Below, one piece after another: positions 5,839 to 10,401 of a stretch of 41,000 bases of DNA. The stretch is taken from positions 1 through 41,000 of IMG/VR virus record IMGVR_UViG_3300034062_002216. The stretch is one strand, 5' to 3'. Both the position numbers and the translations under genes were made by a program. Within the stretch, counting starts at the first letter, position 1. Every line of letters starts with the position of its first letter. The notes under the pieces were generated by a model that saw nothing but the letters and a program-made list of their open reading frames with translations, had not been told where the DNA came from and did not search any database. Source of the stretch: a virus.

Positions 5839-7526
5839 TACTCTGCCTGTGTAGCCTTCTGGATGCGGTAGCCGAGCCACGCCATGCACGGGACGGCCAT
5901 GGAGTTGCCGAGGGCGCGGTACTTCGGCCCGTCGGCGGCGGGCTTCTTGCGGAAGGTGATGTCGCAGTGCTCGTCGGGGAATCCCTGGAGGCGGCAACAT
6001 TCCGTCGGCGTGAGCCGGCGAACTTGCATCGCGTGCCGGACGAACTGGTAACTGTGCTCCGCACTAGTGCGAAGAGCCTGCATCGTCGGGTTCTCGACCT
6101 TACCGCCGCCGGAGGCCCACTGGACTTGCATTTGGGCGCGCTTGGCTTTGGTGAACACAGCCGGGATGATCGGCGTCCCGCGGCCCGTGCCGTCCTCCTC
6201 GACCGCAGCAGCTCGAGTGGTCAGCGCGTGGGTGCGCGGCCCAGTTACGCAGGCCGGCACCTGCGGCCGCGAGAGCGGCCCAGTACCCTCCTCGGTGATG
6301 CCGAGGCCATCATTGGCATCGCCGTAGCCGCCGCCGTTCTGCCAGTTGAAGCCCAGTGACTGCCGCAGGACGAGCGTGTCCTGATCGCCTTTGTCAGCAT
6401 CGGCCGAGAGCGGCGGCACGACTTCGTCAGGCTTTTCGTCCTTGCCGCGAGTGTAGTGCGACGGCTTGAAGGCGACGGCCTCTCCGACAACGAACGTGTC
6501 CTGCGAATCACGCCCGCTTCCGAACACGCCGCCTTTGCTTTGGTTCCCAGCCGACAGCGCGTATGCCGGGTCTGGGTGGCCGCTGGGCGCAATCCACCCG
6601 CCCCTCTGCCCCTTGTTGCAGTTGAGCGTCCCAGCGTGGTCTACCAGCCGCTCTGCGTTGGCCTGGTCGCTCGCGTTCCACATGACTGCGGCCGGCCCAC
6701 GGGCCACCATGCTCGCCGCCACGCCGTCATCGGTGATCTGCGGTTCGTACTGGGCATTCACTCCTTGGTTGAACATGGCTCGGTCAAGGTGGTACGGCTC
6801 ACCACTGCTTGCAGGGCGCTCCGCAGAGCCTCCGGCAACTGCTTGCCGCGCTTCTCCGCGCGTCGGAGGATTCCCGAGCACGCTTTCTCGGAGAGAAAGT
6901 ATCTCTGATGGACAGGCCCGCTCTCCAAGACTTGCGACAAGCTCACAAGGCACGGCAACGAGAAAGACCCGCCGACGCCTTTGAGCCACGGCAAAATACT
7001 GGGCATCGAGGACTCGATAACCCACTCGGACGGTTTCGCTACCGAGAAAGCCTGCTTTAGGCCACTTCCCGTCTTGAGTTTCAATGGTGTCATCGACCCC
7101 AAGGAGGCCGCTGATGAAGCATCCGAAGGCGTTGTCCTTGGTGCTGAGAACTCCTGGGACGTTTTCCCAAAGAGCGATTGCTGGCGGTCTTCCATGACGC
7201 TTCCTCACTTCGTTGATGTGGTGAAACAGATGAACGTAGATCAGCGACAAGTTGCCGCGTTCGTCATCAAGGCTCTTCCGTAAGCCAGCCACGCTGAACG
7301 CTTGGCACGGCGTGCCGCCGACGAGCAGATCGCACTCCGCGAGCAGCTCCTCCGGCCACTCACGGTACTTGCTCATGTCGCCGAGATTCGGCACCGACGG
7401 GTAGCGCTGGGTCAGCACCGCCGACGGGAACGGCTCGATCTCGCTGAACGCCAGCGGCGTCCAGCCGAGGCCGTGCCACGCGGTCGATGCTGCTTCGATG
7501 CCAGAACAGATGCTTATGTATTTCAT
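5838..7526 (-). CDS. DNA cytosine-5 methyltransferase
   Basis: A 562-residue C5-cytosine DNA methyltransferase. Motif I is ICSGIEAAS (residues 6-14), motif IV GGTPCQAFS with the catalytic Cys at 74, motif VI ENVPG (121-125) and motif VIII QRRRRVF (182-188). Motif IX (RRLTPTECCRLQGFPD) and motif X (ALGNSMAV) are near the C-terminus. About 300 residues separate motifs VIII and IX, making a large target-recognition region. No restriction endonuclease is adjacent, so this looks like an orphan phage enzyme protecting phage DNA from host restriction. The start overlaps the previous stop as ATGA. Confidence 0.95.
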   Translation of the reverse strand: MKYISICSGIEAASTAWHGLGWTPLAFSEIEPFPSAVLTQRYPSVPNLGDMSKYREWPEELLAECDLLVGGTPCQAFSVAGLRKSLDDERGNLSLIYVHLFHHINEVRKRHGRPPAIALWENVPGVLSTKDNAFGCFISGLLGVDDTIETQDGKWPKAGFLGSETVRVGYRVLDAQYFAVAQRRRRVFLVAVPCELVASLGERACPSEILSLRESVLGNPPTRGEARQAVAGGSAERPASSGEPYHLDRAMFNQGVNAQYEPQITDDGVAASMVARGPAAVMWNASDQANAERLVDHAGTLNCNKGQRGGWIAPSGHPDPAYALSAGNQSKGGVFGSGRDSQDTFVVGEAVAFKPSHYTRGKDEKPDEVVPPLSADADKGDQDTLVLRQSLGFNWQNGGGYGDANDGLGITEEGTGPLSRPQVPACVTGPRTHALTTRAAAVEEDGTGRGTPIIPAVFTKAKRAQMQVQWASGGGKVENPTMQALRTSAEHSYQFVRHAMQVRRLTPTECCRLQGFPDEHCDITFRKKPAADGPKYRALGNSMAVPCMAWLGYRIQKATQAE

Positions 7527-7723
7527 CCCTTCCCCCTCGCCTCGGCCTGCTCCTTCGCCATCGCCTGCTCCTCGAGCCGACGCATCAACGTGCGGATGAC
7601 CACGGAGACCTGGCCGTACCAGTTCGGGGTGTCGCCGCCGTAGCTGTGGCCGAACTTAGCCAAGTAGTCGAGCCACAGGAGAGCGTCCTGCGTCGTTTCG
7701 ATGTTTCGTGTTGGTTCGGTCAT
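7523..7723 (-). CDS. Small protein of unknown function
   Basis: A 66-residue protein: MTEPTRNIETTQDALLWLDY, then LIRT-type helix segments and a charged C-terminus ending EQAEARGKG. Four-base overlaps on both sides place it in a tight cassette just ahead of the DNA methyltransferase. No recognised domain. Confidence 0.75.
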   Translation of the reverse strand: MTEPTRNIETTQDALLWLDYLAKFGHSYGGDTPNWYGQVSVVIRTLMRRLEEQAMAKEQAEARGKG

Positions 7724-7938
7724 TTCGACCCTCCCACGACGCCAGCCGTCGCGTCGATCGGCGTGACGCCGATTCGCTGCAACTCAGAGAACAGTCGCGA
7801 CCGCGCCGTCGAGTCAGGCTCGTCGGGCTCCGGCCTGCGGAGCCGCTCGAGCATCTCCGGTGTCTCCGCGATGGACAGGAATCCAACGTGAAGGACGGCG
7901 GTCACGAACGGTCTGGCATCTTGTTGTTCAGTACTCAT
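7720..7938 (-). CDS. Small protein of unknown function
   Basis: A 72-residue protein containing FVTAVLHVGFLSIAETPEML and an R/P/E/D-rich centre. It starts at 7938 with an ATGA overlap and ends in an ATGA overlap. I do not recognise a family; it is supported by coupling and coding-like composition only. Confidence 0.7.
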   Translation of the reverse strand: MSTEQQDARPFVTAVLHVGFLSIAETPEMLERLRRPEPDEPDSTARSRLFSELQRIGVTPIDATAGVVGGSK

Positions 7939-8141
7939 CGCTTCGCCCTATGCCACCCGATCGACCACGCCGCCTTCCTCGTCACCTCGTGATCGCCCAG
8001 CCCGTGGGCATCCAGGAGCGTCACGAGCATCGCCAGATGGAATCGCTTGGAGACAAGCTCCTTCTTCGCCTCGTCAAGCCGACGCCGCAGGCGGGCGTTG
8101 CCGCGCACCTGGCCGGTGAGTTCCCGTCGATACGTCTTCAC
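7935..8141 (-). CDS. Small basic protein directly after the tRNA-like RNA
   Basis: A 68-residue basic protein starting with GTG at 8141: VKTYRRELTGQVRGNARLRR, then a helical stretch FHLAMLVTLLDAHGLG. The GTG is five bases from the 3' end of the tRNA-like element; the G-run of that acceptor stem is the only possible Shine-Dalgarno sequence, so translation and RNA folding would compete. A longer in-frame reading to 8246 would run through the whole RNA element and was not preferred. Function unknown. Confidence 0.65.
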   Translation of the reverse strand: MKTYRRELTGQVRGNARLRRRLDEAKKELVSKRFHLAMLVTLLDAHGLGDHEVTRKAAWSIGWHRAKR

Positions 8142-9061: not shown

Positions 9062-9439
9062 TCACGAGACTGCCTCCAGGGTGGCCTTGTGCGGCGGAAT
9101 GAGCCCGTCGGCATCGCCGAGCACGGTGATCTCCCTGCCGTCGCAGTCGTCGGCGAAGGCGAGCCAGCGATGATGGCCCTGCATCGCCGCGACGTCGTCG
9201 GCGTACCGCTCGACGGGGTGAACGCCGCTGGCGTCCAGCAGTGCCGTTTCGTAGGCTAGGCAGTCCCCGGCCCACATCGTGCTGACGACGACGTTGGACT
9301 TCGACTTCGTCCGGCAGACGGTGCGGATGACCTCGTCGTCGCGGCCGTTGGCGAGCATCTCGCGGACGCCGCGGGCCATCGACGGGGCGCCGGCCGCATC
9401 GCAGAGGTTGGCGAGAAGTGTGAGTGTCAGCGCGCTCAT
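9062..9439 (-). CDS. Unknown protein encoded after tatA
   Basis: A 125-residue protein beginning MSALTLTLLANLCDAAGAPS and containing MWAGDCLAYETALLDASG and WLAFADDCDGREITVLG. Its ATG overlaps the tatA stop as ATGA, so it is cotranslated with tatA. It has no signal peptide or membrane helix and I do not recognise a domain. Confidence 0.75.
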   Translation of the reverse strand: MSALTLTLLANLCDAAGAPSMARGVREMLANGRDDEVIRTVCRTKSKSNVVVSTMWAGDCLAYETALLDASGVHPVERYADDVAAMQGHHRWLAFADDCDGREITVLGDADGLIPPHKATLEAVS

Positions 9440-9624
9440 GCCGTCACCTCCTTCTCCATCTCCTGCTCCAGAGCCTTGCACTCACGGTCGACTTCCAGGA
9501 AACCTCGCTTGAACTCCACGATCGATTGGCCGACGCTGCGCGCCACCTTCGGCAGGCGGCCTCCGAACAGCATCACGGCGACGCAGGCGATCAGACCGAC
9601 TTCGATTGTTCCGAGCCCGAACAT
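9436..9624 (-). CDS. tatA: Twin-arginine translocase subunit TatA/E-like protein
   Basis: A 62-residue protein with the full TatA plan: a short N-terminus MFGLG, a membrane helix IEVGLIACVAVMLF, the hinge FGGRLPKVARSVGQS, an amphipathic helix IVEFKRGFLEVDRECKA and a charged tail. The FG motif and the L-P-x-x-A-R-S-x-G hinge are family hallmarks. TatA forms the pore component that exports folded proteins. The ATG has a strong AAGGAGA site and the gene overlaps the upstream gene, whose product has a Tat-like signal, by 34 bases. A phage-borne tatA is unusual; the gene sits in the csrA operon. Confidence 0.88.
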   Translation of the reverse strand: MFGLGTIEVGLIACVAVMLFGGRLPKVARSVGQSIVEFKRGFLEVDRECKALEQEMEKEVTA

Positions 9625-9950
9625 TTCACTTCTCCTTCAGTGATGGGGATGGAAAACACGCTCATGTCGCAGTACGACGGCATGACGATTGCGGGGGCGT
9701 CGGTGAAGCCGTGGAAAGCCATGCCTTCCACGAAGTGCTTCCGTAGGGCGACGAGCCGCTCCTCCGACACTGGCACGTTCACCTTGATGACGAATAGCGG
9801 TCGGCACTTCTGCGCCTCCGTCTCTTTCACCGGCATCATCTCGACGCTTTCGACGCCTACGGCGGCCTCGTCGCCGAGCAGCTTTGCCGCCGGCAGGGCC
9901 ACGCCGGCCAGCGGGAACATCCTCAGAAGGTTTCTGCGATCAGTGATCAC
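9591..9950 (-). CDS. Small protein with a twin-arginine-like signal sequence
   Basis: A 119-residue protein starting GTG at 9950 (GTGA overlap). The N-terminus ITDRRNLLRMFPLAGVALPA has the RR-N-L-L twin-arginine pattern followed by a moderately hydrophobic stretch, as in Tat signal peptides; a cleavage site around PAA is possible. The rest, including PLFVIKVNVPVSEERL and MAFHGFTDAPAIVMPSY, is an unrecognised alpha/beta domain with three cysteines. Its gene is immediately followed by tatA, suggesting a matched substrate and translocase component. Whether it is really exported is not shown. Confidence 0.75.
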   Translation of the reverse strand: MITDRRNLLRMFPLAGVALPAAKLLGDEAAVGVESVEMMPVKETEAQKCRPLFVIKVNVPVSEERLVALRKHFVEGMAFHGFTDAPAIVMPSYCDMSVFSIPITEGEVKCSGSEQSKSV

Positions 9951-10228
9951 TTCTTGACTCCGAAGACCTTGCGAATTTCCTCGGCCACGGCCTGCGTGTC
10001 CTCCGGCCGCTTCCGGTCGCCGACGGCGTACTGCATCTCGACCACGAGGTACGCCGCCATGTCCGTCACCTCCTTCGCCCACTCCTCCGGCCCGCAGACG
10101 CCAGGCTGGCATCGATCCACCGTGGCCTTCGCCAGATCGGTGGCGATGCTGACGAACTCCTGCTTCCAGTCACGCGCAGGTCGGTATGGCTGCCACGGGC
10201 TGCCGTAAATCGGCGTGCGTTCGTTCAC
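9947..10228 (-). CDS. Unknown protein between csrA and the Tat pair
   Basis: A 93-residue soluble protein starting with GTG at 10228, overlapping the csrA stop as GTGA. It contains WKQEFVSIATDLAKATVDRC and EEWAKEVTDMAAYLVVEMQ and ends EEIRKVFGVKK; it is probably mostly helical. I do not recognise a family. The overlap implies that its translation depends on ribosomes finishing csrA. Confidence 0.75.
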   Translation of the reverse strand: MNERTPIYGSPWQPYRPARDWKQEFVSIATDLAKATVDRCQPGVCGPEEWAKEVTDMAAYLVVEMQYAVGDRKRPEDTQAVAEEIRKVFGVKK

Positions 10229-10401
10229 GACTTCGCCTCCTGCGTCCGCATCACCAGCTCCTCGCGGCTGATGCGAATGTGCCGCGGCGCCTTGATGACG
10301 AGCTTCACTGTCTTGCCGACGACGCTGTCGACGATCACCTCGATGCGAGGCCGCTCGAGGACGATCTTCTGGCCGGGGCGTCGAGTCAGAACCAGTGCCA
10401 T
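10225..10401 (-). CDS. csrA: CsrA-like carbon storage regulator (RNA-binding)
   Basis: A 58-residue protein of CsrA size and pattern. The N-terminal strand LVLTRRPGQKIVLE matches the L-I-L-T-R-R-x-G-E-x-I core with the RNA-contacting R-R. It is followed by strands IEVIVDSVVGKTVKLVIKAP and the C-terminal APRHIRISREELVMR, equivalent to A-P-x-x-V-x-V-x-R-x-E-L/I-x-x-R. CsrA dimers bind GGA motifs in mRNA leaders and block or activate translation. The gene has its own predicted promoter and a hairpin with GGA in the loop over its Shine-Dalgarno site. Downstream genes including tatA are coupled to it. Confidence 0.88.
   Translation of the reverse strand: MALVLTRRPGQKIVLERPRIEVIVDSVVGKTVKLVIKAPRHIRISREELVMRTQEAKS

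Follow-up and report, generated by a model that had tools for sequence, protein, structure and literature searches.

Why should a tailed phage carry tatA, a gene for a component of the twin-arginine (Tat) translocase, and place it directly behind a gene whose product starts like a Tat substrate? This question is raised by the window, i.e., the whole 41,000-nucleotide stretch of viral DNA analyzed here (Table 1). The window represents a bona fide tailed phage: its integrase, major head protein, head maturation protease, connector, exonuclease, Prim-Pol, and helicase genes bear out the view of the preliminary description that the gene pair belongs to a phage rather than to a host chromosome. The 62-residue TatA that it had described is present, and the protein passes the Pfam TatA_B_E model, the family check that had been proposed, scoring 36.2 bits where 21 are required (E=3.6e-9). 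Its best NCBIfam match is the TatA/TatE subfamily model TIGR01411 at 37.2 bits (E=1.6e-9); since this score lies under the cut-off of 53.9, the protein is filed under the wider TatA/TatB/TatE family, PF02416. The preceding gene overlaps tatA by 34 bases, as had been claimed, and its product, referred to here as the RR protein, does have a twin-arginine-like start (MITDRRNLLR; given at greater length, MITDRRNLLRMFPLAGVALPA), with the arginine pair invariant across the six sequences of its family (family 1). The GTG start assigned to this gene is supported by five homologues that begin at the same position relative to both arginines. The 125-residue gene product encoded directly 3′ of tatA has no match in Pfam or PHROG, a promoter scan gave no signal above chance, and no defence family was found by PADLOC. 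A phage csrA lies beside the cassette and is kept in part of the clade described below.

Table 1. Features of the tatA region, numbered from the first letter of the window
Feature	Position	Strand	Details
125-aa gene, directly 3′ of tatA	9062..9439	-	4-nt overlap with tatA
tatA	9436..9624	-	Glu8; 12-residue membrane helix V9-F20; hinge Gly21; Arg23; amphipathic-helix Gly32; F38-K39; Cys49 in acidic tail, conserved in the clade
RR cargo gene (family 1)	9591..9950	-	119 aa; GTG start; 34-nt overlap with tatA (9591-9624)
Mature cargo, predicted beta-alpha-beta domain	9591..9812	-	AlphaFold2, low confidence (mean pLDDT 58)
Elements of mature cargo			Strand 53-56, helix 63-79, strand 87-90; AlphaFold2 model, low confidence
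Proposed twin-arginine signal, residues 1-24	9879..9950	-	MITDRRNLLRMFPLAGVALPAAKL; proposed from sequence; RR among 4 invariant family columns
Codons of both arginines (CGC AGA)	9933..9938	-	Homologues use other codons, both arginines kept
93-aa gene	9947..10228	-	4-nt overlap with RR gene; cassette member in 4/10 clade phages
csrA, upstream border of accessory slot	10225..10401	-	Pfam CsrA 51 bits; border role from L103/L106

The search of viral records for tatA next to an RR gene, which the preliminary description had suggested, recovered the pair in further related and unrelated phages. At least 15 distinct phage records contain tatA, namely a clade of 10 that comprises the window, G001 (near copy G002), G003, G004, G005, G006 (near copy G007), G008, G009, G010, and G012, and five phages otherwise unlike it. 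In viral scans, the clade members have replication and structural genes in common with the window. The other five (G011, G013, G014, G015, and G017), in which tatA was found by profile and motif scans, show almost no other match to window proteins; they encode terminase, portal, head, or protease proteins, the evidence for these being weak in G013. All 15 TatAs have a glutamate, a hydrophobic stretch of exactly 12 residues with Phe at its end, a hinge glycine, a basic residue, a helix glycine, and an FK motif. The features described as important for TatA activity are a polar residue, a short helix of 12 residues ending in Phe, a hinge glycine, a positive charge, a helix glycine, and the FK motif (PMC9527704, section 7). 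With pN at 0.154 and pS at 0.549 (ratio 0.28) across its 10 phages, clade tatA evolves under purifying selection. The cysteine in the acidic tail (in an E-C context) occurs in all 10 clade TatAs and is missing from those host TatA tails that were inspected. No TatC was found in the 15 tatA-positive phage records, which are fragments, and none of the 50,697 phage records in INPHARED matches the window TatA. A generic TatA query did match Salmonella (annotated TatE), Acinetobacter, Listeria, and comparable records; these hits were taken to be bacterial sequence within phage entries.

Among cellular proteins, the closest TatAs found all come from Planctomycetota, with 40-57% identity across most of the sequence. 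When the phage proteins were placed in a tree with planctomycete TatA, a comparison that had likewise been proposed, the phage clade joined Pirellulaceae TatA (94/82), the alignment being short. TatC is present in 10 of the 11 planctomycete genomes checked, which are those of the nearest cellular TatAs. Because of these three observations the host is probably a planctomycete. Capsid relatives occur in 8 of 294 planctomycete genomes and are distant (27-38% identity). In 7 of the 10 genomes with TatC (G059-G063, G065, G066), the TatC match is split by an insertion, resulting in unusually long TatC frames.

Every one of the 15 phage records has at least one RR gene. In 11 of them an RR gene adjoins tatA (the window, G001, G003, G004, G005, G008, G009, G010, G012, G015, and G011, where it lies downstream), and such neighbors often overlap; elsewhere it is found ~5 kb away (G006), five and nine genes away (G013), ~8 kb away (G014), or eleven genes away (G017). 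Up to four RR genes are present per phage, with unrelated mature domains. Family 1 (window, G001, G003, G004, G005, and G012) is 24-34% identical to the window protein and has as its only invariant columns M1, R5, R6, and one proline, the arginines being encoded by varying codons. Family 2, with 11 sequences, retains two arginines, a phenylalanine, and two prolines throughout. A third kind of cargo, with a capsid-like segment in two cases, is carried by G008-G010, and G011 and G015 have others. In the window RR protein, the twin arginine near the N-terminus is followed by a weakly hydrophobic stretch, as in Tat substrates; no clear A-x-A cleavage site was seen in its signal, and the protein matches nothing in Pfam, PHROG, or NCBIfam, Tat-signal models included. 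Relatives display canonical twin-arginine signals (MNRRSFLKRIGCGVAAG and MDRRGFLQRLASAAAAM), and one of them, L009:6580-7071, passes TIGR01409 (TAT_signal_seq) with 19.7 against a cut-off of 16.7, the other RR proteins staying below the cut-off and the window protein giving no score. Structure models suggest an alpha/beta domain for family 2 (pLDDT 73) and a small beta-alpha-beta domain for family 1 (pLDDT 58); fold searches with the models of both families returned no match. A search of viral sequences that started from the window RR protein retrieved nothing, and one that started from its family two already known loci only, as the cargo evolves too fast for its homologues to be caught in this way.

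Several RR proteins are unusual in themselves. Upstream of tatA, L009 encodes an RR protein (7302-7940) with a segment resembling the HK97 major capsid protein (PF05065, 30 bits), and the corresponding RR protein of L010 (7308-7901) shows a weak similarity to a large protein encoded by that phage; both look like capsid-like fragments fitted with an export signal. A family-2 homologue in a tatA-negative phage (L125, 9889-10341) apparently has no Tat signal (MSNHRRAQQDLLEFL...) and is possibly a signal-less form of the cargo.

Co-occurrence was evaluated in a control set of 80 loci related to the window by their helicase, 9 with and 71 without tatA, in which RR genes were called by a widened pattern rule and curated by eye; GNAT-like proteins (YRRRGVA) caught by the pattern were rejected as false positives. 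After curation, RR genes are present in every tatA-positive locus versus 5 of the 71 tatA-negative ones (L094, L103, L115, L130, and L142), and these five all belong to family 2; family-1 cargo is absent from the tatA-negative loci of this set. Deduplication at 97%, with the window included, leaves 9 loci with both genes, none with tatA alone, 5 with an RR gene alone, and 48 with neither. Fisher's test yields p=1e-7 with phylogeny ignored; with phylogeny considered, ~5 of 6 independent pairs point in the same direction and none in the opposite one (p=0.06). A profile search of the full records of 40 tatA-negative relatives found no TatA, and the same profile finds TatA in 134 of 149 planctomycete genomes as a positive control. 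The five tatA-negative phages with RR cargo suggest that host TatA can sometimes suffice. Since TatA and the twin arginines are conserved across related phages and their pairing recurs in unrelated ones, the pairing exceeds chance. The idea of a translocase component encoded beside its probable substrate has thus gained support from the conserved pairing, the co-occurrence controls, the full set of retained TatA features, and the invariant arginines.

The cassette is mobile. Starred branches of the helicase tree record at least six changes in the tatA state. L106, which has tatA, and L103, which does not, encode nearly identical helicases and share flanks of ~82-96% DNA identity; they differ in a slot that extends from directly downstream of csrA to the next shared gene. 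In L106 this slot holds a gene for a 114-residue protein, an RR gene, and tatA, and in L103 (9331-11591) genes for a PTPS/QueD-like protein, a radical SAM protein, a nucleoside deoxyribosyltransferase, and a 225-residue protein that has no Pfam match and appears DpdA-like by eye, a set which is probably a 7-deazaguanine DNA modification cassette. This swap places the RR-tatA cassette in an accessory slot beside csrA.

How might such a cassette operate? TatA is described to cluster on substrate-engaged TatC and to weaken the membrane so that folded cargo can pass (PMC9527704; PMC6708511). Given a TatC-competent TatA, no phage TatC, and adjacent or overlapping RR genes, export through host TatC is the simplest model, and we regard an accessory Tat-export cassette, in which phage TatA and RR cargo work through host TatC, as the probable explanation, with moderate confidence. 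This would agree with the suggestion in the preliminary description that the phage modifies Tat export. The phage protein would be a working TatA whose Glu8 touches host TatC; it would join the TatC-containing receptor of the host and raise or specialize the export of phage RR proteins, above all of the one translated just upstream of tatA. Upon cargo binding, its short helix and amphipathic helix would thin the membrane. The exported cargo, which is variable, would probably act in the host envelope or periplasm, e.g., in superinfection exclusion or envelope remodeling. A phage may need its own TatA despite that of the host for reasons of dosage, specificity, or host shut-off. Evidence running counter to the export model is that the window signal gives no score with Tat models and shows no clear cleavage site, that five tatA-negative relatives have RR cargo, that the RR gene is not adjacent in G006, G013, G014, and G017, that the cargo models match no fold, that the co-occurrence reaches p=0.06 once phylogeny is considered, and that one further phage group (G362-G364, see below) has tatA with no convincing cargo.

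The same genes could instead interfere with host Tat, with phage TatA and an RR decoy competing for the TatC receptor or diverting TatA, which may alter the export of host Tat proteins such as surface receptors of rival phages. This would agree with the retention of every TatC-contact feature in the phage TatAs, with a small, fast-evolving cargo under a conserved signal, and with TatC in the likely hosts; however, as many as four RR genes with unrelated mature domains in a single phage look like cargo rather than decoys, and RR genes are found without tatA too, so that we judge interference unlikely. A lysis-related use, which the preliminary description had considered conceivable, would have TatA clusters thin and permeabilize the membrane and the RR protein set the timing. 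TatA is laid out like small holins such as TpeE, and clustered TatA destabilizes membranes (PMC9527704). The preliminary remark that the window has no recognizable endolysin or confident holin holds for the ~30 window proteins scanned on this linear-fragment record, and neither TatA nor the RR protein matches PHROG or Pfam holin families. Since the cassette is patchy (missing from 71 of the 80 helicase relatives, with the repeated state changes noted above), adjoins csrA and replication genes including the helicase, and is swapped for an apparent DNA-modification cassette, it is not an essential lysis module; moreover, retention of the Glu, the hinge Gly, and the FK motif suggests that TatA acts together with TatC. 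A lysis role is therefore disfavored for the window clade and on the whole improbable. A separate phage group (G362-G364; loci L211, L214, and L216) has a minimal TatA of 44-45 residues encoded behind structural genes, an arrangement that speaks for lysis; no convincing Tat cargo was found there, the nearby RR protein being Sec-like. The pairing is thus not universal, and a membrane-active or other role of TatA is possible in that group.

It is also conceivable that the RR proteins are not exported at all, being membrane-anchored or carrying misread N-termini, and that their pairing with tatA is incidental. The window signal is indeed the weakest of its kind, but canonical signals in relatives, an arginine pair that stays invariant while its codons change, and the co-occurrence control make this quite improbable. 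Least credible is a host tatA picked up as a chance passenger without function, an idea suggested by the small size of TatA and its planctomycete relatives: purifying selection, conservation across 10 phages, and repeated acquisition along with RR genes largely refute it.

Going beyond the export cassette itself, there is in our estimation an even chance that planctomycete phages and several unrelated ones have repeatedly assembled a portable half-translocase, i.e., a TatA with swappable RR cargo that docks on host TatC and exports folded proteins. If so, such half-translocases would constitute a new class of phage accessory module and open up the envelope side of planctomycete infection; they would also offer natural TatA-cargo pairs for asking whether TatA selects its cargo and make tatA a marker for finding more phage-exported proteins.

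The TatA family is known, and what is new is a TatA in a phage cassette together with its cargo. Literature searches, conducted mostly outside subscription journals and without preprints, found no study of phage tatA and no description of a phage with a Tat translocase component plus Tat cargo. Phages do encode Sec-dependent envelope proteins. Planctomycete TatA/E (PF02416, nearest in Pirellulaceae) has the same domain layout and essential residues as phage TatA, whereas the clade proteins are short (58-67 residues), lack the long variable tail, have the clade-specific Cys49, and are encoded together with cargo and csrA within a phage operon. Small holins of the TpeE/BhlA type (PMC9527704) resemble phage TatA in combining one short membrane helix with a following amphipathic helix, but they are unrelated in sequence and do not have the TatA residues kept in phages. 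A Tat component in a virus is also recorded, as a single annotation in a figure legend of PMC10564846, for a marine circular virus; there, however, it is TatC and not TatA. The 6.9-kb contig L071 (G016), of either viral or cellular origin, combines genes for TatC, TatA, and a 657-residue RR protein with a reverse-transcriptase-like gene and a short repeat-like one. Judged by eye, it resembles a diversity-generating retroelement in which the variable protein bears a Tat signal and is accompanied by Tat genes of its own. Minimal TatA-TatC pairs are encoded beside a dedicated substrate in bacteria, as exemplified by Bacillus TatAdCd with PhoD; the phages likewise place the translocase gene beside the cargo gene, with the difference that they bring TatA and cargo and no TatC.
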